A stretch of 64,000 bases of DNA from contig JAGFMI010000005.1 of the NCBI GenBank assembly GCA_021030905.1, forward strand, positions 744,001 through 808,000, read 5' to 3'. Position numbers and translations under genes: made by a program. The notes beneath the pieces were generated by a model, which saw only the letters and a program-made list of their open reading frames with translations, had not been told where the DNA came from and did not search any database. The stretch is from Pyrenula massariospora (taxonomy: Eukaryota; Ascomycota; Eurotiomycetes; Pyrenulales; Pyrenulaceae). The first letter of the stretch is position 1, and the number at the start of each line of letters is the position of its first letter. Shown piece by piece: positions 13,273-52,494 of the stretch.

Positions 13273-14085
13273 GGGATTCTCGTCTCGTTCAGGCTATGTG
13301 CATTGCATATTGAAAGGGCTGAATGCTGCCATGATCTCAAACGTAAGTCGCTTGGCGCTGTTTTCACCACTTTGATCAAGCCTTCCTTGTTTGGCCGTTG
13401 TGGGTTGCAGAAATCTTGCATAAATTAGAGCCTTGGCCTTGGATGTTGCAGCGGATGCGCTGCATCTTGACTAACAGTGTTTTGCACTGTGGATATCGAA
13501 TCAAAAGTCTTCGGTTCATTAACGGTGCATGTATCTAGTAGAAGACGTGGCAACACCGTTCTAGCAATATCTCTACGCAAAGAAACTTACCTCTTCATCA
13601 TCCTAGAGGTATCTCGCAATATTATTGTCGCTCTGAACGCCGTAAAGTTCAGCCTCATGACTTGTTGACCCTACTTTCATCCCGGTTCGGTGCCGCTCAC
13701 TTGTCAGCATCTTACTTACCTGTTTGGGTGCAGATGTTCCCAGGATAGATCAGGCTGTGGGCTGAGTAGCGCCACCATGCCTAAATCTGGCGGTTGGCCT
13801 ATTTCCGGCCTTCCCCACCAGCATTTCCCCTTCCCGCTGCAATCCTTCTAGGATATGACGACGGCTCTGCCATACGCCTGCAAAACTGCTGTTCATAGAC
13901 TCGGTGCCGCACTTCAACGCAGGAATCGTCAATGATGCACAGCTTCTAAGCCTCGAAGCCTTCTCAACTGCTTCAATCGTCTTCAGCTCTTCGACGTTTG
14001 TCTTTTCTCCACGCCTAGCCCCCTCGTTTCATGTTGTTTCGACGGTTGCTTCATTTTTCTTTTCCTGTAAATTCTTCCGTTCACC
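13273..14085. other. Intergenic: sidA 3' region and promoter of secreted ferritin-like gene
   Basis: No gene seen. The last 100 bp before 14086 are pyrimidine-rich, a common feature of fungal promoters and leaders. I found no ATCWGATAA copy here, so iron control of the next gene is not supported by sequence. Confidence 0.5.
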
Positions 14086-15219
14086 ATGTTCCTCGGTCTT
14101 TCGCTTCTAGTTCTTGTTCCTTTTCTCCTACTTTCTACGTTTCCTACGGTCACAGCATCACCGGTGATTAATCGCAGAGCAAGCTCCAACCCTACCGTCT
14201 CCTCCCTATCCCCCATCAAAACTCCCAACCATGGGGATCCAAAAGCAATGGCGATATCATATGATACAAACAAGCAAGCAGGTGGAGGAATCCCAAATGT
14301 CTCACATCCTCCTCAGCTTTCCCAAGCTGCAGCAAAAGATGTTCAATTCCTCCTCCTCCTTACCAACATTGAAATCTCCTTCTACAACTCAGCGATGACC
14401 AATCTCACGCAACAACCACCTTCTCCGGACTGGGACCCATCTCATTCAATTGGCAACACCCCAGCTCCCAAATTTCTCTCGACTCTCATCGCGCAACGTA
14501 CAGTCCACGCTGCCTACCTCTCTACTCTACTCTCCCGTTTTGGCGCACCTATTCCCCCGCCCTGCAAAGAAGGTTACCGCTACCCTCACTCAATTAGCCT
14601 GACCACCTTCCTCTCCGAAGCTCTTCGGCTGTCCACTATATCCCTGAGCGCTCACGATAATACCCTCATCACACTCTCAAGCAGCGATCCTCTTCTTCTT
14701 GCCCCTTTGACTGGGCCAATCTCCACCCTCACCTACCTAACCACCTCCCTCTCGCAATCCCTCTCCAAACCATCAAATCCAACCCCGTATTCAACCACAT
14801 CTCTTCCTCTACCCTTCCTATTGACTCTCCTTCCTTCTTACCTGCCAAGCACCTGCACATTACCACCACTTTGGGAAGAATCCAGGAATCCACCGCCTGC
14901 ATTAACCCTCTCCCTCATACCTTCTGACAACGAACGATCCATAACGTTCTTCACCGACCCCAACCGTCTACCGGATGACATCACCGCGCCTCCCGTGCGC
15001 ACATACGTAGCCTGGGTTCACGGCGCCAGCGCTCCCATTTACACGGATGCTATGGTATTTCCAGAAGGAAGGATCGAAACCGACGTGCCTGAAGAACTTG
15101 GGCGAGGAGGAGCGGTTTATGTGGCTTTGGTCAGCGGGAGAAACCAGGATACGGTCGAAGAGCTTGAAGGGTTGGTGTTAGCGGGATGGGAACTTGTGAA
15201 CCTGGATTTAGAGGACTGA
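14086..15219 (+). CDS. Secreted ferritin-like-fold protein (Rds1/LsdA-like)
   Basis: A single exon of 377 residues. Residues 1 to about 24 form a signal peptide (MFLGLSLLVLVPFLLLSTFP). Residues about 85-230 resemble the ferritin-like domain of fungal Rds1 stress-response and LsdA sexual-development proteins: a helix with FLLLLTNIEISFY, a second with RTVHAAYLSTLLSRFGAPIP, and a third rich in Leu/Ser. The Glu-x-x-His metal motif expected in helix two is only partly kept (His present, Glu replaced by Arg in QRTVH), so iron storage is doubtful. The last 100 residues lie outside this domain and I do not recognise them. It sits directly downstream of the siderophore pair, but no shared regulatory site is visible. 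The domain call rests on pattern resemblance only. Confidence 0.6.
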   Translation: MFLGLSLLVLVPFLLLSTFPTVTASPVINRRASSNPTVSSLSPIKTPNHGDPKAMAISYDTNKQAGGGIPNVSHPPQLSQAAAKDVQFLLLLTNIEISFYNSAMTNLTQQPPSPDWDPSHSIGNTPAPKFLSTLIAQRTVHAAYLSTLLSRFGAPIPPPCKEGYRYPHSISLTTFLSEALRLSTISLSAHDNTLITLSSSDPLLLAPLTGPISTLTYLTTSLSQSLSKPSNPTPYSTTSLPLPFLLTLLPSYLPSTCTLPPLWEESRNPPPALTLSLIPSDNERSITFFTDPNRLPDDITAPPVRTYVAWVHGASAPIYTDAMVFPEGRIETDVPEELGRGGAVYVALVSGRNQDTVEELEGLVLAGWELVNLDLED

Positions 15220-24499: not shown

Positions 24500-25815
24500 T
24501 TACAGTTCGTCATGCCCCTTAATTTCCACTACCGGCCGCCCACTGTCTTTCATTAAATCCACACCCTGCTTTGACCTCCACTTCTCAAACAAAGCCCAGA
24601 ACTCTTTCTCCATGCTCTTATCCATCTGGTCCGGTAATATCACTGCGAACTCGACATTGAGCCGTCCATGGTCATCTCCCTCGCCATGTTCATGCACATG
24701 GCCCCCATGATAGACGGGCATTCCCTCCCCTCTTATCGACTGGATCGATAGAGGCTGGACGACTTCGCCACGATTCCGTGACAGCTGCACAACGTGTCCA
24801 TCGAGGTGGGTGATGTTGCGTGTCCAGCCTCCCATCCAGGCTTCCCTAACACTGAGCACCTCTTTCCAGAATAAGTCGTTGTCTTTCCTTCGGAAGAACG
24901 TGCCGTCTGTGCGCTCATGCTCTTGGGACCCTAGTTCCGGTCCCGTTTCGATGAGCGTTACAATCACGTCTCCGGCAACAAAATCAGGGCTCTCGTCCGC
25001 CTCGTTCTCAAATACTAGTTGATGTCCAACTGGCATACCCTTCTCAATAGTGGCAACCATCGATGCCCTCTTCTTCGTCGTGCGGTGCCCGTTGCACACA
25101 GGACAGACATGTTTGATAGACTTCCCCTGCCCACCGCACTTGGGGCATTGCATCTGTACCTGTTGGAACATGCCCGGCGCGAGTTGATGTCGCTGCACCA
25201 CCATGCCCCTTCCTTTGCACGTGTCGCATGTCTCAACCGTGCCGTCCTCCGATCCTGAACCGCCGCATGCATCGCAGATTTCTTGCCGCTCGATCTCAAA
25301 CTCAATTTCCCTTCCTGTGTAGAAGTCTCTCAGTGGAATTGCCATGCGTAATTCCATATTTGGTCCCACCCGCTGGCCGCCGCCATGTCCGAAGTGTCCG
25401 CCGCCGCCGAAGAAGCGTGAGAATAGATCGAATGGATCGTGGGCTTGTTGCCGACCTCCGCCCTGTCTGTGTTGTTGCACACCTTCATGGCCATACTGAT
25501 CATAGATTTTCCGGAGAGTAGAGTCGGAGAGGGTGTCGTAGGCGTCGGCAAGCTCGACGAATTTCTTTTGTGCTGTCTCATCGCCTCTTCAGAGAGTGAT
25601 CAGTCACTGTTTGAGAACTGCAGGGTTAATTTTATAGAAGAGACTTACGGATTCTTATCGGGGTGATATTTCTTGCTCAATGTTCTATAAGCTCGCTTGA
25701 TGTCGCGCTCCGAAGCCGATTTGTCTAGACCGAGAAGCTTGTAGTAGTCTTCGGCACATATGGCTAACGATAGGAAGAGTAGGATTGTGGTAACGAGGGT
25801 GGAGAGGAACAGCAT
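24500..25815 (-). CDS. SCJ1: ER-lumenal Hsp40 co-chaperone Scj1-like (DnaJ type I)
   Basis: Stimulates the ER Hsp70 (Kar2/BiP) in folding and ER-associated degradation. Exons 25815-25649 and 25586-24500 (intron 62 bp) give 417 residues. Residues 1 to about 21 are a signal peptide ([18 protein letters not shown]). The J domain follows with YYKLLGL and the HPD tripeptide in [10 protein letters not shown], which spans the splice site. A Gly/His-rich linker leads to a zinc-finger region with four CxxC motifs ([32 protein letters not shown]), then the peptide-binding C-terminal domain. The protein ends exactly in HDEL, the ER-retrieval signal, so lumenal location is well supported. All expected type I features are present and nothing is missing. 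Confidence 0.96.
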
Positions 25816-26853
25816 GGTGCCGTCTCCTTCAAATTTCTTTCTCGATAGTAGTGGTTGTACATGCGGCGCCGGTCTTGAGATTACTTTCGAATGTGACGCA
25901 AGGCGAGAATCATGACAGCTATGAAAAGTCTTGAATGCAAGGCGACAATTCGTTGATAGGAAGAAGTGATGTTAGGAAGCTTCTCTTTCGGTCGTGTCCA
26001 CCTCACGGTCCCGGGCAAAAAGTTACGGAAGCTTTGAGAACAGGCTGGCAAACTGCGCAGGTTGCCGCTCCGCTCGCCATAACTCTCCGCCGCTCGTCAC
26101 GGCCACAAGGGCCTTGTTAGGGGTCGGTGTTCCCTATTCCCCACCAGTTCTTCTCACCAGTTCTTCTCTCACCGCTGGCCTTGCAACCTCCTTGTCTCTT
26201 GATAGTCGAGCTCTGGCAATGTCCTGATTTCTCTATAGCTTCCTTGAAGGTAAGTTGGTAACGTGGAGTTCCCAAAGATAACGGTCAACAACGACTGCTA
26301 CCCATGGCGCATTATCGAACTGCGATACACCTACACCTGCGGCAAACTTTGCTTGACGGGTACCCTCACGTTCCAGTCGATTAAAGCAAGAATGTATCTA
26401 TCTTAGGAAGAGATAGAGAGATCTCTAATTGCTCACAGCCTCTCAGCGCATCGATGGTGGCCACTTGTCGTCGTCTCGTACGAGGCTCGGGTTGAACCAA
26501 GACTTTTTGTGTCTACTGCTCCGTTCTTTTGCGTGACAAGTTCCCAGTTTTTCTCCATCGTCGATGCCTTTCAGTAACCATGTGGCTCAATGAATCGTTG
26601 TATCCTTTCTTGTATTGCCGTTTTGTTTTTTACCCGAGCCTGCAAACTGCCGGGCGCAAACTTGACTTTTTCCCGACATGGCCTCGCTCACGAGCAAGAC
26701 GCACTATATTTGAGAGCCCTCAACCTCCCCGCGAGAATAGTTGTCGAAATATATACGTCTGAAGTTCTGCTGCTCCTCTATTTTCTTTTGCCCCGGTCTC
26801 TCTTTCTTGCTCTACTTTCCTAATCTAAACTACACAATTTCCGCGGCTCAAAG
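25816..26853. other. Divergent intergenic (SCJ1 / peptide-precursor gene), no gene seen
   Basis: About 1 kb with promoters for the minus-strand co-chaperone and the plus-strand secreted precursor. Short open frames at about 25935-26227 and 26529-26823 lack any recognisable feature. Confidence 0.5.
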
Positions 26854-27560
26854 ATGAAGATGAGGTTTTCTTCGCTACTTCTGACATTCGCCTTGCCTCT
26901 GACACTGGCCATCCCACTACCACTCGGTATGCCTATCTGCCCCTTGATTGCGTATACATATTTCGGCAGATTGTTCTACCACACTGCTACTCCCATTCCT
27001 GTCTTATGAGACGCTTTGGTTCCCAGCAGCTAATGATCAAGCTAGAGGGATTCTACGACATTGCACAATTCGAGCATGACCATGGCCAATCCAACCATAT
27101 AATTGGAGGCAGGCTGCCGAGACAAGGAGGAGGGCCGGAGAGCATTCCCTTACCGGAGCCGGATGAGGAGGGTTTGAGAGTGATCAATATTGATAAGAGA
27201 GCGGTTTTGGGCCCCGATCCTATCACATCCCCCCCGAGTCACCCTGAGCCGCCACCGAAAGGTCCCAAACCTGCGCTGGTGCCGGACCAGGGTTGGGAAG
27301 TGACTTGGATGAAGAGAGGATTTACTGATGAAGATGGGCCAAGGGAAGATATTCCAATAGATGACGATGAGGAGAAGATTGAGGTGAAGAGAGGATTTAC
27401 TGACGAGGATGGTCCGTGGGAAGATATTCCAATAGATGACGAGGATGAGAAGATGGTGGTCGGGCCCTACAAGAGAGGTGACGACCCTGATGAAGGGGAG
27501 GGGGAGACGGGCGGGGGTTGTGGGCCAAAGTGCGTTGTCTTGGAGGCGATGAAACGGTAG
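26854..27560 (+). CDS. Secreted Kex2-processed repeat-peptide (KEP-type) precursor, product unknown
   Basis: A probable propeptide of 195 residues. Exon 1 (26854-26926) encodes a signal peptide, MKMRFSSLLLTFALPLTLA; the 119-bp intron (26927-27045) has a CTAAT branch-like site 12 bp before its acceptor; exon 2 is 27046-27560. Lys-Arg pairs, the Kex2 cleavage signal, occur at IDKR, WMKR, EVKR, PYKR and at the very C-terminus (AMKR). Two of the released segments are near copies: GFTDEDGPREDIPIDD... and GFTDEDGPWEDIPIDD..., each followed by an acidic stretch; at DNA level they repeat with 75-bp spacing (27312, 27387). The last segment carries CGPKC. This is the layout of fungal KEP precursors, including peptide pheromones and dikaritin RiPPs. 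No UstYa-like or other tailoring gene is adjacent. The first-exon splice is inferred; no known family was recognised. Confidence 0.7.
27312..27470 (+). repeat. Two tandem 75/84-bp coding repeats in the peptide precursor
   Basis: Copy one starts at 27312 and copy two at 27387; the second runs 84 bp, to the next Lys-Arg codons at 27471. Each begins with codons for Lys-Arg-Gly-Phe-Thr-Asp-Glu-Asp-Gly-Pro. Differences between copies are mostly synonymous or Asp/Glu swaps in the first 16 residues, apart from an Arg-to-Trp change, which suggests selection on the peptide rather than recent duplication alone. Confidence 0.8.
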
Positions 27561-27918
27561 ATGAGTCTGTGAAGGGGGTTTTATCAGTCCCTGTGGAGGA
27601 AACCCGTTGTACAACGGTCATCCGGTCCTTTTTTATGGATTTCGGGAGCCTTGTATGTTGTCAGTGAAGCATGTCCACGCCGTGGCAGAGGCTATAAAGC
27701 GTGAAGCATTCCTTGCTTCGAAATGCAGAACCTATTTGACCCATTGCACTGACTTTTTAGATCGAGGAGTGATCATGAGATCCGAAATCAATAATGTGAT
27801 CATATGAGCGTAAGTATGTACCAAGAATCGATCTCTCTCTCTCTCTCTCTTTTTCTCTGCAACGGCAAACCCCGCCAAAGACTCAAACCATCTACGTCGC
27901 TTCCCCCGGCCGCTCTCC
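27561..27918. other. Convergent intergenic with a (TC)n microsatellite
   Basis: Gap between the peptide-precursor gene (plus) and the pectinesterase (minus). A (TC) run of about 19 bp lies at 27832-27850. No gene seen. Confidence 0.6.
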
Positions 27919-28932
27919 CTACGACAAATAACTCGTATCCACCCAACTCGAATACCCACTCCCCAAAATCGTCCCAATCCCCACCGCACTCCCCAACTTC
28001 GTCGAAAAGCTCGCCCTCGTCCCGCTCGCCCCGGCCCCCGAATTCCCATACTCTCCAAACAACACATTGCTTGTCCGCTCATCCCCTGTATTCCAAATAT
28101 GCCACCCAGCCCCGTTAATCACATTGCTCATGCTCGTGCTCTGGAACACGACCCTCGCGTACTGCGCCCACGGCCGGCCCAGATAATACGCACCCGCGGG
28201 CACGCTGTTCCCCGACTGCGCGGCCACCGTGCTCTTGTTGATGACATAATAACTAGTATCGCTCGTGCTGGGGCGGCCGTTGGCGGTAATATACCCCAGC
28301 GAGGCAGCCAGCACGCGGATATCGACGCCGTCGAACCACGCCGACGCGTGCTGGCCGAAGATGAAATCCGTCGCGCCCACGATCAGCGTCTTGGCGTACA
28401 CCTGGTACCCGTTCTGCGCCATCAGCGTGTCCTGGAAGCCGGTCAGCTGGCAGCCGTAGTAGCCCTGGTTGGTGGCGTAGGCGGACAGGGCGAGGGCCTG
28501 GGCGCCCGCCTTCCCCGCCGTGTTGGCCATGTTGACGTTGTAGAACTTGGTGTTGGGGGACCAGTTGCGGACGGTGGCGGTGGCGTCGTCGTTGGCGGCG
28601 TTGGCGAGGCCGAGGGAGTGGGTGATGGTGACCGTGTTGGAGGTGTAGGAGGAGGTGTCGGCGGTTTGGCCGTAGATGGTCAGGCTGGAGGCTTTGCGGG
28701 TCGGGATGTAGACCTGCTCGGCGTAGGTGCCGGAGTAGATGAAGATGGATTGGGCGGAGGTGGAGGATGTGCTGAGGGCGTTGACGGCGTCTTGGACCTT
28801 GCTATATGTTGCGCCGGTGCTGGAAGAGCCGACTGTGAGGGCGCCAGCAGGAGGTGTTTGGCGGGAAGCGGCATGAGAGAAAGGGGTGAAAAGGAGAGGA
28901 AGAAGAGCGAGGGAGACGGTTGGTAAGCGCAT
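27919..28932 (-). CDS. Secreted pectin methylesterase, carbohydrate esterase family 8
   Basis: Removes methyl groups from homogalacturonan in plant cell walls, outside the cell. A single exon from the ATG at 28932 gives 337 residues. Residues 1 to about 21 are a signal peptide (MRLPTVSLALLPLLFTPFSH). The CE8 right-handed beta-helix shows the expected landmarks in order: YSKVQDAVNAL, IFIYSGTYAEQVYIP, GCQLTGFQDTLM (Gln and first catalytic Asp), GATDFIFGQ (second catalytic Asp) and LGRPW (substrate-binding Arg). Length and order match fungal pectinesterases. The gene is extremely GC-rich at third codon positions, so its antisense strand is open for long stretches; that is a by-product. It supports a plant-associated or saprotrophic lifestyle. 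Confidence 0.95.
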   Translation of the reverse strand: MRLPTVSLALLPLLFTPFSHAASRQTPPAGALTVGSSSTGATYSKVQDAVNALSTSSTSAQSIFIYSGTYAEQVYIPTRKASSLTIYGQTADTSSYTSNTVTITHSLGLANAANDDATATVRNWSPNTKFYNVNMANTAGKAGAQALALSAYATNQGYYGCQLTGFQDTLMAQNGYQVYAKTLIVGATDFIFGQHASAWFDGVDIRVLAASLGYITANGRPSTSDTSYYVINKSTVAAQSGNSVPAGAYYLGRPWAQYARVVFQSTSMSNVINGAGWHIWNTGDERTSNVLFGEYGNSGAGASGTRASFSTKLGSAVGIGTILGSGYSSWVDTSYLS

Positions 28933-33889: not shown

Positions 33890-35975
33890 GGCGACCTGGT
33901 CACGTTGTGTAACAAGACTCGGGAAGGATTTAGGCCCCAGGACAGGCCGGCTGAGACACGCTGAAATGAAGGTTGATGGCCGTAGCTCGTCATCAAGAGC
34001 ATCTTATTCGTGCCTCGAAGTAGGATACACGCCTAGATGTCATGCAGTAAACATCTTCACCACCCAGCTAATCAACCTGGTGTTTGCGGATTTAATCTTA
34101 AGCTTCTATGCAATGTGCTGTCTGCAGCTTCCCAACGCTGATGACCACAACACCTGAGCTGACTAACTTAAACGAGTTGTGAGGACGTAAAGACCCCAAC
34201 AGGATTCCTTTGCAGAGGTCAAGGGCAATAATTTGAAATGCAGTCAGCGTGGAAGCTAGTTCGTGCGGCCAATGAAGACGACTGTTGGTGGGGTCGACCG
34301 AGAGCCTTGATTCAACTTCAGAATGAGATGACTTGCAGCAGCCTGCTCATCTGTCAGGGACGAGTCTACAGCAGACCAAGCTCGGTCTTGAAACGCCTTC
34401 TCTGGTCGTGATGATCGAATGATGGATCGATCGACCGGCAGAGTCCTCGTTAGTGCTAGCTTTGAGAGGCGCGGAAGCAACCGCGCCATCCACCAACCTT
34501 GCCGAGCGGTCGCCTCTTTTCGCCCTGACTGTGCGACCCTGCTATGTTTGGTGTCTGTGTACCGTTTCTGGTAACCGCTCGCCCGCACATCTCGAAACTC
34601 ATCGCCGTCCAACGAGATCTGCGTCAAATTGATCGTACCCAGCATTCAGAAGAAGCACATGGTTGCGTATTTCGTGTCTTCCATCCCAGCAACGTCGCAT
34701 ACCGTTCGCGCGCCTGCCCCCAACGCACCATCATGCGCCACGACACGTGCGCCACACGTCAGCGCCACGCCAGGCTGGGAAGGTCTCCCGGCGACGCGGG
34801 CCCCCCATCAGCAACCGCTCCCTCTTTTCTCACCACCTACTTCATGCTTCGCCCAAGAGCCTCATGCTAGGCACAGGATCCTATCCAACGTTAATGCCCT
34901 TGATCGCTCTCAAAATCTGAGAGTCCAACCTATTGTGTGATAATGGCCCCTCTTGAACACCATCACACGCCCCACAAAGCCGTGTTTCTGACGAATGGGA
35001 GCCACTGGCTCCCGATACAAGGGCTCATGGCAGCTGAATACCAGACACCTTGGACTCTGATGCTGTCCTGCTTATCTGCGTCTGGCGTTGACGCCGCTGA
35101 TTCACATGCAAAAGCTTACTTACTAACCCCAAGAGCTAAGCAGGAACGTTAGGCTGACTTGACGCTGGGAGGACGTGACGCTCCAACCAGCCTGAGACAT
35201 AGGTCAGGTCTCTCCAGAAATTGGAACACTCGCTCTACCAGCCTCCTCTTCGGCCATCACGTCGGACAACGGGCCTAAATTGAAGAGCGGGTGGTTGTGG
35301 CCTGGTGCAAATCGGTGTTCCGCCCCAAATAAGTACTTCTTTGCACAGCCTTGCTGCAGCCTTGTAGCCTGAACGGGACGAATTCCAGACAACGCTTTGG
35401 GAACGTCCTCCCTGAAATGAACAGTTGACTAGGCTGCAATCACACTGGTCTCATGATACAACGCCCTATTCGCCTCCCTGCCCCCCTCTACACCTTAGAT
35501 CCGCCGTGCATCGGACAAGCATCCATTAGACAAACTCTTAACATTCTTATTTTCCCATTGATTGAAATGCTTCAGATCAAAATTCACGTCATGATTTCAA
35601 GGTCCATGGAGCCTCATTCGTTTCTGATGCCACTTCGTATCTCTTAAGCATTCATCTTCAGTGCTCTGAAGTTGACGTTCACTAGCCCTCCTACTTTCTC
35701 TTTGATACGTCCCAAAGCCAGCTCTCTCACCATACGTTGCCAAATATTCCATCCAAGTCGAAAGACAATTCGAATCCTTTCCCTCCATTCCGGACCCCCG
35801 AAATTCATACGACTGCGATATCTAGTGTTTCTTTTGGATGTGCAGACGTGATATCTGGGTGAACGCATACACAACACGACGTCTGATTCCTCGCGAGCAT
35901 TGGGTTCTGTGCAGACATAGTTCACGCGGCCGACCTTGTCACAGGTCTTGGACGAACGATTTGGGTACTTTCGAC
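33890..35975. other. 2.1-kb gene-poor stretch
   Basis: Promoter side of both the cyclin gene (minus) and the Arg-rich protein gene (plus). Several frames of 60-130 codons exist on both strands, but none shows a domain, signal peptide or convincing splice. A GC-rich patch lies around 34700-34860. It may simply be a long divergent promoter, or may hold an unrecognised non-coding transcript. Confidence 0.45.
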
Positions 35976-37040
35976 ATGTCACCTCCCCGTCGACGTTCTT
36001 CTGAGGAGCTTCGCCCCGTGAGCCCCATAATTGAGGAGTCCGAACCTATCATTGTCCAGACTACGCCCGATGATGAGGGCTCCAGACGCCGATCGCGGGA
36101 GTTGAAGGTGGGCCTCGAGCTGCTCAACCCTTTCAAGAAGAAGCAGGTTCGAATTGTCGACAAACGTCCTGAGTCTTCTTCTCGGCATGCAGAGAGTGAT
36201 GCAGAGACTATTGATCTGCGAACAGGACCACCTCGCGCTCGACGGTCACCACCATTGATGTCCGGAGCTAGATCTCCTCACGGCTCTCCTATTCGACCAG
36301 TCCAAGCTCCAAGCCCTCCGTCACCAAGTCTTCCACGACAACCTCGTGTTGAATATGTTCTTCCTCGAGAAGGGGTATCTCCTGAGCACGAACGCAGATT
36401 TACGATGCCACATAGACAACCGAGCCGAAGCCTTGGGAGTTCATCTCCCCGATCTGGGTCTGGCGAAGAACGTGTGCTCATCGATCCCGACCACGACGAG
36501 ACGCTTAATCGCCTCGAAGCGGAAACAAGGCGTGCGAGACGATCAGCATCAAGGGAAAGGCATCTCCGTCGTGAAGCCCAGTTACGAGCTTATAGGGCGG
36601 AAGCGGAAGCCAGAATTGAGAAAGATCGAAGACGTGAGGCGGAACGGCGATCTCGCAGGGCTGAAATAGAGATTGATCTTGCTGAAGAGCGCCGTATGCT
36701 TGCTCGTCGAGAAGCAGACCGAGCGAGAGAGCGATCTCAAGAACGAAGGAGACGTCTTCTAGAACGAGAGCGGGAGCTACTTGTTACAGACCGGCGGCGG
36801 GATGAGCTCCTCTCCAATCGGCTCGCAGATCTAGATTTGCTTCGGCCTCGACACAGTCCAGAGCGCGTGGAAGACTTGAGACGGGACATGGGCGATCCCG
36901 GATCTCGGCTGATTCTTGAAGCTCAGGAGAGTCTACGCCGGGAAAGAGACAGGGAAAGAGACAGAGAATTCCGGAGCCGGGGGTCGGGTCGGATTATTCT
37001 GGACGATGACGAGTTCAGATCTGGTCCTCGATGGCGTTAG
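35976..37040 (+). CDS. Arg/Glu-rich coiled-coil protein, function unknown
   Basis: Single exon of 354 residues from ATG 35976 (MSPPRRRSSEELRPVSPI); an in-frame ATG at 35838 would add 46 residues. The first 180 residues are Ser/Pro/Arg-rich and disordered, with many SP motifs and a short conserved-looking LELLNPFKKKQVRIVDKRP. From about residue 195 a long charged helix begins (ETRRARRSASRERHLRREAQ, ERRSRRAEIEIDLAEERRML), a predicted single alpha-helix or coiled coil, ending in RERDRERDREF and an acidic IILDDDEFRSG tail. RS/RE/RD composition recalls splicing-associated proteins, but no RRM or other domain is present, so I assign no function. It is flanked by long gaps on both sides. Confidence 0.7.
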   Translation: MSPPRRRSSEELRPVSPIIEESEPIIVQTTPDDEGSRRRSRELKVGLELLNPFKKKQVRIVDKRPESSSRHAESDAETIDLRTGPPRARRSPPLMSGARSPHGSPIRPVQAPSPPSPSLPRQPRVEYVLPREGVSPEHERRFTMPHRQPSRSLGSSSPRSGSGEERVLIDPDHDETLNRLEAETRRARRSASRERHLRREAQLRAYRAEAEARIEKDRRREAERRSRRAEIEIDLAEERRMLARREADRARERSQERRRRLLERERELLVTDRRRDELLSNRLADLDLLRPRHSPERVEDLRRDMGDPGSRLILEAQESLRRERDRERDREFRSRGSGRIILDDDEFRSGPRWR

Positions 37041-44533: not shown

Positions 44534-46835
44534 ATGGAAGTACTCGCCCCAAGCGCGAGTGTCATCGCAATCGTTGGAGCTCTATCTGCCACCGCTAAGG
44601 TTACAAAGAAACTTTGGGACGGTCCAGACGAGCTTCAAGAGCTTTCCTTGGAATTGGTCCATCTCAACACACTTGCGGATGGTTTGGTCTCCTTCACACA
44701 AACGGAAGCACCTGACACCCTTGAAGCTCAAACTTTTGAGCCTGCAATTGCCCGATTGCGGAACGCACAGAGAGTGTTTGAAGAGCGGCTTTCAAAGAGA
44801 CACAAATCCAGCGATCCTAAGTCACGATTCAGGCGCAGAACATGGATCTGGAACAGAGGCCGCATCAAAAGGGTTGGCCAAGACGTAGCTGCCGTGCGAA
44901 GAGATCTCACAGCAGCCATACTACGGATGAATCTGTAAGAAATCTAGGCTCACAAATCATTGCGACCAAGAAGAGCTCACTAATGACCTCAGGGCATCAG
45001 TAAAGCGAGCCGAAAACCTTCACAGAGATTTTTTAAATCTACTTCACGAGGCTGGTCTGTCTGGTTTCTCTAGCCATTTACAACAGACTGTCAGTGAACA
45101 GCGAACAACACCTATACTGAGTCCACGAGGTCGACACAACTCTCTAGGTGGAAGTCCAAGCGCCGTTCAGGACCACTCTGAACACGTGGATGACTTTCTG
45201 GACGCCGCGTCTCAATTTTCCGAAGACATCTCGGAGACTATCCCCTTTTTCACTCCACATAGCAGCCTCACGGATTGTTCATTTGAAACATCAGCGACCT
45301 TCTACCCAGAACAATACTTTATAGAAAGTCGGTCATTTAACCGTTTATCAGTCTTCTCAATGAGCGAGTTGGACCGGAATGCCACCACTCACATAAGCAA
45401 ATATTATCTCCTATTTGCAAAGGATGTGCGTCATTGGAGTCGTGTCACTGTCACCGTCACAGCTCCCGCTGCTTCTGACTCAAGGATATCGGAGCTGTCT
45501 TCTGCGACCTTTGATGTCTATCACACTTTATTGAGAAATTTGAAGCGGTGGCTTGAAGCGCTGTTCGACGAGACTGAGCTGTATAGTTCCGTAACCAATG
45601 TTTCCATACAGCTCCGAGCAAATGACAAAGATATTATAACGTTTGATCCGGAAAATAGCAAGGTCGCTGAAGACACTGAAGAAGCGCTAACCACAGAAAC
45701 CTCTCAGCTTGTAGAGGAGATCGAATACCGCGGGCTTCCTTACTTTTTGGAGAACGAGATTGTCGTACTCTCCCGCATAACACCACAGAAGTATGCTGTC
45801 CTGGTGAAATCTCAACGGTGCATCGAGCGAAAGTTGCCCTTTAATGGGAGAGGAACGTCAAGCGAAAGGCCAATCGACAAATTTGTTGCCGATATGAAGC
45901 TACTTCAAATGGCTCAAGGATGCGCTTGGGTCGCCAAATTCGTGGGAGTTGTTCTAAGCGACGACCGTACCCAGTTCCGAAGCTATCTCACATCCTGTCC
46001 AGAGAAGGGGCCAATATACAACCATCTGCAGAATCCAAAGACAATGAATCAATCTATCCCGCCGAAGCAAAGAGAAAGATGGATCCGCCAAGCGATCACA
46101 TGTGTGGCAGAGGTTCATCAGCGAGGAATAACAATTGGCTGCATTGATGGTCTCTCCATCTGGATAGACTCTGATAACAACATTTCACTTTCCACCTTCA
46201 ACTCTCAAGCCACTACAATTCAATATCAGCCTGGCTGCATTGCCCCTGAATTACGGAAAGCCACATCGCCACAGACTCTGGCTCTCGACCAATATCTGAC
46301 ATTTCAAACCGACTTGTTTCAGCTGGGTCTCCTTATCTGGGCGCTTGCTGAGCAAAGTGCGCCTTCTGGTCATCTCTTCTGCCAGCGAAGTGGATGTCCT
46401 ACATTTCCCCGATATCGATGCACAGCTGATCACACCAACCCTATTGAGCTTCCTCATTGCAATGAAAACGTACCCTCGTATGTCAACGCGATCATTCGGC
46501 ATTGTCGGCAAGAACAACCATCTCAGAGGAAACCTGCGTCTACCCTTCTAAAACTACTTCCCCTAGACGATGTCCACACAGATCATTCTCCACTTCTGTC
46601 GTCTTCCACCAGACAACTATTCTTTGATATAGCATGCAGTAGCTGTAAGAGCTTTGTGACCAATGATCATTTTCACTGCAACATTTGCTCTCAGGGCAAT
46701 TTTGACCTTTGTACGGGTTGTGCTACGGCAGGCGTTTCTTGTTATGACAGCGCCCACAAACTGACGCATAGGACTCTTACAGACGAGGGACTTGTGAATG
46801 ACTTGGGCACTGAGATTTCCCAACCATCTAGATAG
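44534..46835 (+). CDS. Helo-like N-terminal domain, pseudokinase and ZZ zinc finger protein
   Basis: Exons 44534-44934 and 44993-46835 (intron 58 bp) give 747 residues. Residues 1 to about 130 are helical and resemble the N-terminal domains of fungal STAND/NLR proteins (Helo-like): APSASVIAIVGALSATAKVT, then DGPDELQELSLELVHLNTLA. Residues about 374-625 follow a protein kinase outline (KYAVLVKSQR, ELRKATSP, TDLFQLGLLIWALAEQS), but the catalytic sites are gone: the HRD-equivalent reads GITIGCIDGLSIWID (Asp replaced) and the DFG-equivalent reads LSTFNSQA. It is therefore a pseudokinase. Residues about 681-723 form a ZZ zinc finger: CSSC, HCNIC, DLCTGC and HKLTH. In fungi such modular helical/kinase/ZZ proteins are linked to incompatibility and cell-death signalling; that role here is inference. 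Domain names rest on visible motifs only. Confidence 0.82.
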
Positions 46836-47961: not shown

Positions 47962-49416
47962 TCATCCCCTCCTCCCTCCTCCCCCCCGTCCCCACCGCCC
48001 AACAAACCTCCTCTCCGCCCTCCCCCCCTCTTCCAGCCTCCCCTCCACCTCCCCCCCAATCCCCTCGATCTCCTTCCCCAGCCGCGTCACCCGCGCGCTC
48101 ATCTGCGCTAGCTCTCTCTGGATCTCTTCTTCTTCGTCTTCTTCGTCATCTTTGTGCTTGCCGTGCACGGCGGTGGCGAGGAGGTCTGACGCGTCGCGCA
48201 GGGGTTGTAGGGTGTGCGAGAGGATCGAGGAGCATGGGTCGGGGGAGGTGGGGGATGGGGCGAGGTGCGAGGTGCGCGTGTGGATCGCGTGGATGAGGGA
48301 GGGGTGGGAGTGGGGGTTGCCTGCTGTGGAGGGGATGCCGAGGTGTTGGAGGAGGGGTTCTAGGGATGGCGGGATCGTCGTCGTGTTTGTTGTTGGGGTG
48401 GGTTCGGGCTGGCGGGTGGTGGGATTTTGGGACGTAGCGTTCAGTTGGGCGGCGGTCTGGGTGATGTCTTCGAGGGCGGTGGAGTAGGCGTGGAGGGATT
48501 CGAGGTGGTCGGAGAGGTCGTTCATGCGGGTTGTGAGGTGGGTGAGGGTGTTTGATATCTGCATGCAGCGTAGTTGGTTAGCTCGTGCTTTGTAGAACAA
48601 GATGCATACTCCATCGTTCCATGCATGACAATAAGAAAGAGCGAATCCTACATGTTCTCTGTGCTCCCTCCGCGCCGCCCTCTGCGCCTCCTGATCCCGC
48701 CTCAGCCCCCCACGAATAGGCCCAGTAAACTTATTCTCAACAAACATCTGCGCCAGCCCCCCGATCTCCGGGTGCAGCGACTCGATATCCGCGACGACAT
48801 CCGCCTCACTCTCACCCTCCCCCTCCACCCCCTTCCCGTCTTCTCCCCTTCCCCCCTCAAGCCCCTCGAGAAAAACCCGATCCAACCGACACACAACCTC
48901 CTCCCTCAAACACCCCGCCAAAAGCTCCGCCAGCCTCCCCACCCTCTCCACCCTCTCCTTCATCTTCCCCCCATCCTCCCCCTCCGCCTCCACCCCGTCG
49001 ACCCCCAAACCATCCAAAACCTCATCATCGCCCCCCAAAACCCTCCCCACAACCCCCCTCACCTTCCCTTTCCTCGCCGCAACCTCATCCCGCAGCCCCC
49101 GCAGCCTCTCATTCAGAGCGAGAGAGAGCTCCTCCGTCTCGAAGCGCAGGGCCTGCGCCGAGGCGGCGTGGCGGCGGGCAAACGTCGAGGTGAAGCGGGT
49201 GTGGGCGTGGGTTGTGAAGGTGGTGCGGGATTTGAGGGCGGCGAGGGCGGCGAGTGCGTCGGATTGGGGGTTGGTGATGGTTGGGGGGTCTGATGAGGGG
49301 GGAGAAGGGGGACGGTGGTGGTGGTGGGGACGGGTTGTTGACGTGGAGCCGTAGCGTGGGCCGGCGGTTGTTGTAATTTTTGTGGGATGAGCCGAGGGTT
49401 TGGTTGAGGGGTTCAT
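47962..49416 (-). CDS. Coiled-coil protein of unknown function
   Basis: Exons 49416-48652 and 48558-47962 around a 93-bp intron (GTAGGA...GCAG, with a GCTAAC branch-like site), giving 453 residues. The intron length is a multiple of three and contains no in-frame stop, so a retained form with 31 extra residues is possible. The N-terminus is His/Pro/Ser-rich (STTRPHHHHRPPSPPSS). Helical, coiled-coil-prone segments follow (LRFETEELSLALNERLRGLR; ISNTLTHLTTRMNDLSDHLE) and a Glu-rich segment near the C-terminus (DDEEDEEEEIQRELAQMSAR) before a Gly/Arg-rich end. C-rich codon bias leaves the opposite strand open over 240 codons. I do not recognise the family. Confidence 0.68.
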   Translation of the reverse strand: MNPSTKPSAHPTKITTTAGPRYGSTSTTRPHHHHRPPSPPSSDPPTITNPQSDALAALAALKSRTTFTTHAHTRFTSTFARRHAASAQALRFETEELSLALNERLRGLRDEVAARKGKVRGVVGRVLGGDDEVLDGLGVDGVEAEGEDGGKMKERVERVGRLAELLAGCLREEVVCRLDRVFLEGLEGGRGEDGKGVEGEGESEADVVADIESLHPEIGGLAQMFVENKFTGPIRGGLRRDQEAQRAARREHREHVGFALSYCHAWNDGVCILFYKARANQLRCMQISNTLTHLTTRMNDLSDHLESLHAYSTALEDITQTAAQLNATSQNPTTRQPEPTPTTNTTTIPPSLEPLLQHLGIPSTAGNPHSHPSLIHAIHTRTSHLAPSPTSPDPCSSILSHTLQPLRDASDLLATAVHGKHKDDEEDEEEEIQRELAQMSARVTRLGKEIEGIGGEVEGRLEEGGRAERRFVGRWGRGGGGRRG

Positions 49417-50215
49417 CGTGATGGGCTCTTCTTTTCTTGTTTTTATTTCTGTTTCTCGGTCTTGAAGGATGGGAAAGGCCGGGGATGCTCTTGTTGCTGC
49501 CCCCTTAGAGAGATGAGAATGTCCCACAGCTCAGGATGAAAGGGTTTTTTACTTGTCTAGTTTTCAACCGAACATTAACATATTTTGATTCTGCCGGTAG
49601 AAAACGATGATCTGGCTGATTGTCTACTGGGTTTAGGTGTGAAGTACGAGACGTTGATAATTGTTTTGCGAAGTTGAAAGATGGGGATAAAAGCGCGTTT
49701 CGCGTTCAACCGAACCCCCTTTTCAGTCCCTTTTTCCCCGCCTTCAGAATGGAGACCACAGCGAGGAGAAAGGAGTATTGGATTCTATGTCACAAGATTT
49801 TTACCGCAGGATACCACTAGACACCCTTGCAAAAGCTTCTACCATGAGGTTTTTGAGTTTACTAGGGAAGATCAGCTAGTAGCCAATCTCGATTGATCCG
49901 TCCTCACTAGACATCATCTCCTAGAATAACTAGATGATGGCCTTATTACAACTACAAGCACGACATATTCCCCGTTGTTCTACGATACCTACCCCGATAT
50001 TTGCCACTGGTATATAGGTTTGAAGGTAGATGGGCAGATCCTGCGGATACAACTCCTCTCTATTTATGTGCTTAGGGATGGTGGAGTCATCACTCGTGAG
50101 CTTGCCTGACAAGTACGATTGCTGGCTATGGACCAGGGAGGCCATGAAGTGCCGCCTACCATAGATACACTGAATGTCCCATTCAAGCTTTGACAGGCGC
50201 CGGATCACGGTATAA
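49417..50215. other. Intergenic, no gene seen
   Basis: Promoter of the coiled-coil gene and 3' region of the next minus-strand gene. Short frames only. Confidence 0.5.
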
Positions 50216-51976
50216 CTATCTCTGGTCTGGTGGACTGCTCAAAGCCCCTTCCTGGTCAACGTCCTCAAAAGCCAGTGACCAATCATCCACATCCCTGAAC
50301 TTCTGTCGCAATTGTGCTGCTTCTTCCCCTACCTCGGCCACCTTAGAGCCACCGACCAGGGAAGAATCTTCTAACGTATCTAATGGTTGATTTTCCTTGT
50401 CGCTTTCGATTATAGAGGTACCGTCTCGCCGGCGGGAGGAAGTGTAAGTATTTCGTCGCTTTGGCTGTGCGGATGGCGGCTGTGAAGATTGCTTAGCAGC
50501 TCTATGCGGTGGCGGCGGTGTTACTCTGGACGGGCTCGTACTTGTAGTGTTCAGTTTCCCGTTTTTCTGAGTACTATTGCGCTCAATTGCGCCCTTTTGG
50601 TGCGCTACAGTAGCTTTCCCTCTCTTACTAGATGGTTGCACTGACCTCCGATTGCTAGCAGGCTTCGTCTCGCGCCGCTTCTTATTTGTAGCAACAAAAC
50701 TCGAGTCGTGGTCATCGGTGGCCTCGCCGTCGTCAGATGCGTTGCTGGAGTCTTGGGGAATATCGAAATCGTCTCTCTGCTTCTGTTGTCTCAACCGACG
50801 ACCCTTCCGAGGTTGTGGCATAAGCTTCTCCAGTGCTTGTGTCGAAGGTTGTCTAGCAGTAGTAGTTCCACTCTGCTTACTCGTCTTAGCGTTCTTGAGT
50901 CTTGTTGTGGCATGTGACTGAGTACTATTTCGTCCGTGTTTTGAAGATGATTTATGGGCTAGCTCGTTCTGTGACGGACTACTGCTCTGGGGTGGGGCAA
51001 AAGTATCGCTGTCCCGTCTCTTGATTGCATCCTTCTCTTTTGAGTGCCTGGGAGTCGATGGTAGATCGAGAGGTAATACAATGTCTGCTTCATCTGAGCT
51101 TTCGTCTTCCTTGTTCGATCGGGATTTTAAATTGCTTCCATGCTTGACATTGTGTCGAGGTCTTGAAAGTGATGATTGTGCAGAGGGTGGTCTAGAACTG
51201 CCCATATTGGAGCCATAGGCTTTGGACGAGCCCAACTGAGGCCGAGATATTGCCTTTGATGTTTCGTAAGGGGTGGATTCACCATTTGGCTCAAGGTCGT
51301 CAAGGTCGTCCATATCGTCCATATCGTCCAATGTATTGTCATCTTGCAGGTTGAGGTTGGACATGATACTTGGTTGACGAGGCCGCCGTCTAACATTGGC
51401 TAGGACCGAATCGCCAAGAAGAGGAGTTGATGTTGCTCCGGTCCCAATTAAGGAAACTTGCGACGAAGGGGAAGGTTTTGACCTAGCCGCTACCGGGATA
51501 GATGAAGACTTTTCCAGGACTTTCAATTGACCAGACTGCGCAGGCTTGACACTGGCTTGTTGATCTCTTTCATTTTCTCTGGCTGGCGAAGGCTGCATGG
51601 CTCTGCTCCGGTAACTTTCTGGATTGTTTCCTATCTTCCTCTTCTTCCCACTGAAACCCGATCCCTCCGGCGGTCCATCGCTAGATCTTTTCTTTTTAGC
51701 CTCTTGATGCTTCTCCCATCCTAATTCATCGCCAACACCTAATCCGCCTGAAGCGAAGATTTCTTTCGGCGGTACACCTCTGCGATTGCGTGTAGTCTTT
51801 TTCACTTTGACGAATTCGTCGCTCTCGTCGCTGGGTACAAGGACGCGTCCAATTGGCTTGTGTTCCACTTGGCGGGCTAGAAAAGTTCGAGGCGACTCAT
51901 GCTGGCTATTTGCGACGCGTGTTGGTTTGCTGTTTGGCTGCGCGACCTTCATCCGCCGCACAGGTGGGCGGGGCAT
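50216..51976 (-). CDS. Large disordered, probably nuclear protein of unknown function
   Basis: Single exon, 586 residues from ATG 51976. Almost the whole protein is low-complexity: Ser/Pro/Arg/Lys-rich with several basic clusters that could be nuclear localisation signals (SGKKRKIG, TNKKRRETK, PRKGRRLRQQKQR). Distinct short segments that look conserved are RVLVPSDESDEFVKVKK near the N-terminus, RRRPRQPSIMSNLNLQDDNT followed by an Asp/Met/Leu repeat (DDMDDMDDLDDLE), and the C-terminal AQLRQKFRDVDDWSLAFEDV. The architecture (disorder plus a few linear motifs) suits a chromatin or kinetochore-type scaffold, but no domain supports a specific role and I do not name one. Confidence 0.72.
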   Translation of the reverse strand: MPRPPVRRMKVAQPNSKPTRVANSQHESPRTFLARQVEHKPIGRVLVPSDESDEFVKVKKTTRNRRGVPPKEIFASGGLGVGDELGWEKHQEAKKKRSSDGPPEGSGFSGKKRKIGNNPESYRSRAMQPSPARENERDQQASVKPAQSGQLKVLEKSSSIPVAARSKPSPSSQVSLIGTGATSTPLLGDSVLANVRRRPRQPSIMSNLNLQDDNTLDDMDDMDDLDDLEPNGESTPYETSKAISRPQLGSSKAYGSNMGSSRPPSAQSSLSRPRHNVKHGSNLKSRSNKEDESSDEADIVLPLDLPSTPRHSKEKDAIKRRDSDTFAPPQSSSPSQNELAHKSSSKHGRNSTQSHATTRLKNAKTSKQSGTTTARQPSTQALEKLMPQPRKGRRLRQQKQRDDFDIPQDSSNASDDGEATDDHDSSFVATNKKRRETKPASNRRSVQPSSKRGKATVAHQKGAIERNSTQKNGKLNTTSTSPSRVTPPPPHRAAKQSSQPPSAQPKRRNTYTSSRRRDGTSIIESDKENQPLDTLEDSSLVGGSKVAEVGEEAAQLRQKFRDVDDWSLAFEDVDQEGALSSPPDQR

Positions 51977-52494
51977 TGTGTTTTCAAATCAGCAAGAGTT
52001 CAGGTTGAAACGGATTCATGTGCACAACGCAAATGAAATACAAGACACAATGGCAAAGAACGCGCGTCTAAATTTGTGATTTGTGAAATTCGCGACGAAA
52101 TCGTGGTGACGAAGTATGTTATGTTGAAGCTTGGGGAAGATGCGGTGTTGATGTCTATCGCGCGTGGCATTTGCGTGGCCGCACTATCTAATCTTAGGGT
52201 GCCACTGGTGCGCTCCACTAACATGGCGGTTTCAAAGATGCTCGTAGGCACAACTACAATTTGGATAACAAGAGTGTAACATCCACAGGAATTCAATGCT
52301 ACGATTGCAAGATGTATGCGCTAGAAAATCAGCAGAAAGGTGTAGATTTGAAATTTGAAAAGAACCCCAAGAACAAGCCTGCGCCGTCCAATGTTTTATT
52401 GAAAAAGTTCAAACGCCTCTCGCTAAACGCTTCTTCAACATGAAGTTAGAATTCATGCTAGCTCCTACACTTGTCATTGTCCAGACAGTCAGTC
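51977..52494. other. Intergenic, nothing recognised
   Basis: About 520 bp between the promoter of the disordered-protein gene and the 3' end of the antiporter gene. Confidence 0.5.

Follow-up and report, generated by a model that had tools for sequence, protein, structure and literature searches.

A predicted Kex2-processed precursor of acidic near-twin peptides in the fungus Pyrenula massariospora

A small predicted gene between a DnaJ and a pectinesterase gene

Within a 64,000-nucleotide stretch of Pyrenula massariospora contig JAGFMI010000005.1 (the window), a small gene predicted to consist of two exons (Table 1) would encode, once exon 1 is joined to exon 2, a protein of 195 residues plus stop. 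The genes around it show exon-like pieces with matches to Pfam families, DnaJ and PTR2 among them, as befits eukaryotic DNA, and the gene content suggests a filamentous ascomycete. Upstream, divergent and on the opposite strand, lies an ER-type DnaJ gene (24500-25815), presumably SCJ1-like, whose product has a signal-like start and ends in HDEL; the start codons of this gene and of the peptide gene stand about 1 kb apart, and the upstream region is common to both. Downstream, a pectinesterase gene (27919-28932) is convergent, the two 3' ends being about 360 bp apart. A wall- or host-facing role had been suggested from the pectinesterase in a preliminary description of this DNA, but that suggestion is guesswork: the pectinesterase gene is convergent, and the shared upstream region is that with the DnaJ gene instead. 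TATA-like sequences occur at 26705 and 26750, 100-150 bp before the ATG of the peptide gene.

Elsewhere in the window, a gene group at 3-21281 comprises a large NRPS frame (AMP-binding, condensation and carrier domains), an L-lysine/ornithine monooxygenase, short-chain and zinc dehydrogenases and an MFS transporter; from the monooxygenase and the NRPS together, it appears to be of siderophore type. Four ORFs, at 14071-15216, 35826-37037, 47965-49530 and 50219-51988 (382, 404, 522 and 590 aa), gave no Pfam match at the thresholds used, and a 634-aa frame at 44931-46832, with a Cys/His-rich C-terminal stretch, matches kinase and PHD families weakly, short of the Pfam cut-offs.

Table 1 Predicted gene structure and precursor segments, by position in the window
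Feature	Position	Strand	Description
Exon 1	26854..26926	+	73 nt, from ATG 26854; encodes signal-peptide-like N terminus MKMRFSSLLLTFALPLTLA
Predicted intron, 119 bp	26927..27045	+	GTATGC donor, CTAAT branch-like site at 27030, CTAG acceptor; sequence-only prediction
Exon 2	27046..27560	+	Five Lys-Arg sites, repeats, stop codon
Segment QGGGPESIPLPEPDEEGLRVINID	27123..27194	+	24 aa, given an additional cut at the monobasic RLPR site; candidate degenerate third repeat
Pro-rich KR-bounded segment	27201..27311	+	37 aa; similarity to repeats not significant
Repeat 1 GFTDEDGPREDIPIDDDEEKIEV	27318..27386	+	23 aa; net charge -9; calculated mass 2632.17
Repeat 2 GFTDEDGPWEDIPIDDEDEKMVVGPY	27393..27470	+	26 aa; net charge -9; calculated mass 2967.26
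Last segment GDDPDEGEGETGGGCGPKCVVLEAM	27477..27551	+	25 aa; both Cys residues of the protein, then the C-terminal KR

The intron, proposed in the preliminary description as the link between a signal exon and a repeat exon, gives a predicted join that is in frame, one of 12 such joins possible. Among in-frame joins from the GTATGC donor, the CTAAT at 27030 with the TAG at 27045 is the sole match to a branch-plus-acceptor pattern in a stretch of 134 nt, and since an in-frame match also arose in 460 of 5,000 shuffles of that stretch, the intron signals lie within chance. Tried on five stretches of neighbouring genes, the intron pattern matched the DnaJ stretch alone, leaving no clean comparators. 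The proposed frame of exon 2 has the top codon-frequency score of the six frames (0.114 vs -0.028 or lower); by synonymous codon bias, the gene was not separable from intergenic frames.

Residues 1-19 are signal-peptide-like, with a 12-residue mean hydropathy of up to 2.24, T at -3 and A at -1, and in our judgement from the -3/-1 residues cleavage would be expected after A19. A signal-start filter, defined post hoc after the 195-aa protein had been viewed, passed 5 of 1,057 open ATGs, two of them (26854 and 26860) in the peptide gene. Because the filter missed the signal-like starts of both the neighbouring DnaJ and pectinesterase genes, it is strict rather than sensitive. A further signal-peptide-like open ATG that passed, at 26590, lies in a different frame, 264 bp upstream of the ATG of the peptide gene. 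Hydropathy and the -3/-1 residues would fit the signal peptide claimed earlier, provided that the exons are joined as predicted.

Should the signal exon remain unjoined, the gene model would be an artefact, and what lies here would be a 243-codon frame that is intracellular or untranslated. That frame (26829-27560), with a Met inside it, stays open across the predicted intron and could give an unspliced product; the intron signals, as noted, do not exceed chance. Yet signal-peptide-like starts are rare by the filter, and here one is placed exactly where a short intron could link it in frame to five Lys-Arg sites; we consider an artefact extremely unlikely.

Lys-Arg sites and repeated acidic segments

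Exactly as the preliminary description had it, the protein contains five Lys-Arg (KR) pairs, the last at its extreme C terminus (residues 75, 114, 139, 167 and 194; Lys codons at 27195, 27312, 27387, 27471 and 27552). It has no KK, RR or RK. When the 176-residue mature part was shuffled 20,000 times, five KR pairs never arose and four arose in 11 shuffles. Ranked by KR density, the unspliced frame stands third of 180 ORFs, the top two being shorter, with three KR apiece. Cutting at KR would yield five fragments of 25-57 aa, KR counted. The sites read NIDKR/A, TWMKR/G, IEVKR/G, GPYKR/G and AMKR-stop; Kex2 is described as favouring an aliphatic residue at P4 and disfavouring Asp at P3 (PMC8528282), so NIDKR may be poorly cut. 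Four of the five pairs are encoded AAG-AGA (P 0.007 for AGA). We rejected shared descent of the KR units as a reading of this codon use, since AGA makes up six of the ten Arg codons gene-wide and is thus not specific.

Two KR-bounded segments are near-twins that begin GFTDEDGP, and KR flanks each on both sides. Their best 14-residue window, KR included, is identical at 13 of 14 positions, the highest value among 180 ORFs of at least 90 aa, which makes the near-identical pair noticed earlier the strongest in-frame repeat of that set; the runner-up, at 10/14, is an antisense shadow of the same DNA. A 155-aa antisense open frame (27153-27617) spans the repeats, and its internal repeat shadows the sense repeat. 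The twins had been said to differ by a Trp for an Arg; this is correct for the first 16 residues, where R/W is the sole difference, but overall 5 of the 22 aligned residues differ. Likewise, a released length of about 23-26 residues describes three of the five segments (23, 26 and 25 aa) but not the other two, of 37 and 55 aa.

The 22 aligned codons of the twins carry nine nucleotide differences, four synonymous and five not (dN/dS 0.21), and in a simulation constraint across all 22 was not significant (P 0.22). Over the first 16 codons, a stretch chosen post hoc, four of five nucleotide differences are silent and one changes an amino acid (P 0.014). Near-identity with mostly silent changes in this post hoc stretch suggests that the acidic peptide itself has been kept. 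The point matters for the reading that treats the acidic segments as a pro-region or as disposable spacers and leaves a single active product, the C-terminal Cys-pair peptide, GDDPDEGEGETGGGCGPKCVVLEAM, which holds the only two Cys of the protein and is itself closed by KR. We regard such a one-product propeptide as unlikely, given how nearly identical the twins are and how few of the changes in their first 16 codons are non-silent, with the caveat that this test was post hoc and its full-length counterpart not significant.

A second alternative would have the protein secreted and left unprocessed, as an acidic repeat protein whose KR sites are incidental. Only two repeats are clear, and the mature chain, which is acidic and rich in Pro and Gly, could act whole. 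Against this stand the five KR pairs, unaccompanied by KK, RR or RK and unmatched in any of the 20,000 shuffles, and their placement on both sides of each twin and at the end of the chain, which together render an unprocessed protein highly improbable.

A third repeat appears as a hint. The string QGGGPESIPLPEPDEEGLRV resembles GPREDIPIDDDEEKIEV, but with every comparison allowed for the resemblance is not significant, 238 of 3,000 shuffles scoring as high, or 231 of 3,000 when the split at LPR is omitted; single tests gave 0.0425 and 0.03, and global alignments were equalled in 193 and 111 of 3,000 shuffles, values that are uncorrected for multiple tests. A motif GP-x(1-3)-[IVL] is present in the five segments tested, and single-segment shuffles hold it 7-33% of the time. 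Regarding the LPR site, Pro is reported to be accepted at P2 of Kex2 sites (PMC8528282), and products ending at a single Arg have been observed (PMC9769878).

The mature chain is predicted to be disordered, its mean hydropathy of 0.395 falling below the boundary of 0.460 given by the Uversky charge-hydropathy formula. An AlphaFold single-sequence model (pLDDT 44.8, no secondary structure reported) is compatible with disorder, though as a model made without an alignment it is weak evidence. The protein matches no family in Pfam or NCBIfam. Two PDB matches, one to adenosylhomocysteinase (E 0.13) and a second at E 2, were both taken as chance, and a scan of viral contigs for relatives gave 12 pattern matches, none of them confirmed. 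In sum, no relatives were found in viral contigs, Pfam, NCBIfam or the PDB, collections among which fungal genomes did not figure. Six peptide strings searched for in literature text returned no relevant mention, the single match, in a genetic-prediction paper, being taken as irrelevant.

Tailoring genes and comparison with known fungal precursors

In the broad sense, a KEP has multiple cores flanked by KEX2 sites (PMC9769878), and KEP architecture had been claimed for this locus. The definitions of two surveys ask for at least three repeats (PMC6339444, PMC7329392), and Le Marquer 2019 further asks that KR/RR cutting leave no fewer than four fragments, each at least two residues long (PMC6339444). 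The five fragments counted here exceed that second figure; of repeats between Kex2 sites, two are clear, the third candidate being the one whose score 238 of 3,000 shuffles reach. As set against the survey definitions, rather than against sequence tables, the locus is therefore not a KEP, since it has only two clear repeats. It shares with the KEPs described there a signal-peptide-like start, KR-bounded near-identical segments and the lack of a Pfam domain (PMC6339444, PMC7329392), and the earlier claim survives in the sense that the gene would work like a KEP, fitting a Kex2-processed multi-peptide precursor, and fails in the sense of the survey definition. The repeat minimum was reportedly chosen against false positives, and some alpha-pheromone precursors fall below the usual four (PMC6339444). 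A two-repeat precursor with a C-terminal KR would be missed by the rule of at least three repeats in both surveys, which argues for looser screens. Sequence-unique KEPs are common, 2,560 of 7,878 being without a homologue in one survey.

We searched the window for the enzymes that a RiPP reading would call for. Pfam scans (E 0.1 or 0.01) found no DUF3328/UstYa or tyrosinase among 60 stop-free ORFs of the window, the frame of the peptide gene included; of 118 further ORFs of at least 75 aa that start between 14 and 44 kb, 20 were Pfam-scanned, and the ORFs above 150 aa that were left out are mostly antisense or overlapping. A UstYa-like motif pattern matched ten times across the six frames of the window, in no case convincingly by eye. 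These scans are in line with the preliminary description, which had seen no tailoring enzyme next to the gene. The 22 shared, aligned residues of the repeat include no Tyr, the sole repeat Tyr lying in the GPY tail of repeat 2. Tyr occurs in 65.6% of the repeats of DUF3328-linked KEPs and is hence usual, not absolute, some types having HH or W in its place (PMC7329392). For 6,120 of 7,878 KEPs a DUF3328 gene was absent within 15 genes (PMC7329392), so that in showing no DUF3328 neighbour among the scanned ORFs the locus resembles most KEPs.

Dikaritins such as ustiloxin, phomopsin and asperipin-2a likewise derive from a secreted multi-core precursor with Kex2 sites; their repeat units are typically 13, 14 and 8 aa, as opposed to 23 and 26 aa here. 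For a dikaritin-type RiPP, UstYa-like (DUF3328) oxidases would have to cyclise the core, and their genes would need to sit at another genomic locus or in short exons beyond the scan. Dikaritin precursors likewise carry a signal peptide, repeats and Kex2 sites (PMC12048977), and repeat 2 contains a Trp, one of the residues that replace Tyr in some DUF3328-linked KEP types (PMC7329392). With neither a DUF3328 nor a tyrosinase gene among the 60 ORFs, ten unconvincing six-frame matches and no Tyr in the shared repeat, the RiPP or dikaritin reading offered earlier is left unsupported, and we give it hardly any weight.

Two further classes of precursor invite comparison. Ascomycete alpha-pheromone precursors also have KR-bounded repeats, and one segment here has two Cys; in this locus, by contrast, the Cys pair is CX3C and sits in a single acidic segment outside the repeat, no XA/XP (STE13) signature follows the KR sites, and there is no Pfam match. 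A repeated pheromone core, whether of the two-Cys type or of the PYGxPxG type, is absent from the 195-aa sequence, and an alpha-pheromone identity appears unlikely. Class 1 Kex2-processed effectors, including the Rep1 peptides of Ustilago maydis, resemble the predicted precursor in having KR sites and in that it would yield several short secreted peptides, and differ from it in that the chain here is acidic and predicted to be disordered (PMC8528282).

Proposed processing and products

Taken together, these results favour a secreted precursor, processed by Kex2 and Kex1, of several linear acidic peptides, to which, judging from sequence features, we assign a probability of roughly three in four. 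It is probably a new peptide precursor whose overall design is common in fungi. In the pathway we envisage, the signal peptide would direct the chain to the ER. A Kex2-type protease of the late Golgi would then cut behind each of the five Lys-Arg pairs, and the KR left exposed, that at the end of the protein included, would be trimmed by a Kex1-type carboxypeptidase. The products would be the 23- and 26-aa near-twins, a 25-aa Cys-pair peptide, a 37-aa Pro-rich piece and an N-terminal piece. Oxidative cyclisation would not be expected; at most, the Cys peptide might carry a disulfide and the Gln peptide a pyro-Glu. Besides those of the twins, the calculated monoisotopic masses are 2420.98 for the Cys-pair peptide, or 2.02 less if it is bridged, 3923.99 for the Pro-rich piece and 2530.26 for the Gln peptide, or 17.03 less with pyro-Glu. 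KEPs offer precedent for monobasic cuts, for pyro-Glu and for peptides that stay linear: linear KEP peptides with minimal modification have been detected, knockouts of six KEPs are described as having no apparent phenotype, and biotic roles have been proposed (PMC9769878).

The near-twins would be the likeliest active products. That they act extracellularly, as a signal or in interactions between organisms, is a guess to which we give somewhat less than even odds. A more elaborate scenario, which strikes us as rather doubtful, is a sequence-new family of acidic secreted peptides descended from one unit of about 24 aa, with a GP-x-x-IP core, that multiplied to at least three copies. One copy would be released by cutting at the monobasic LPR site and bear a pyro-Glu cap, and the family would serve, unmodified, as an extracellular signal, possibly by binding metal or the cell wall. 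In fungi, Kex2-cut precursors give rise to RiPPs as well as to mating factors and to peptides of the hyphal surface or of host interaction, and for most KEPs no function is known (PMC9769878). Should the peptides prove real, the calculated masses given above are direct search targets.
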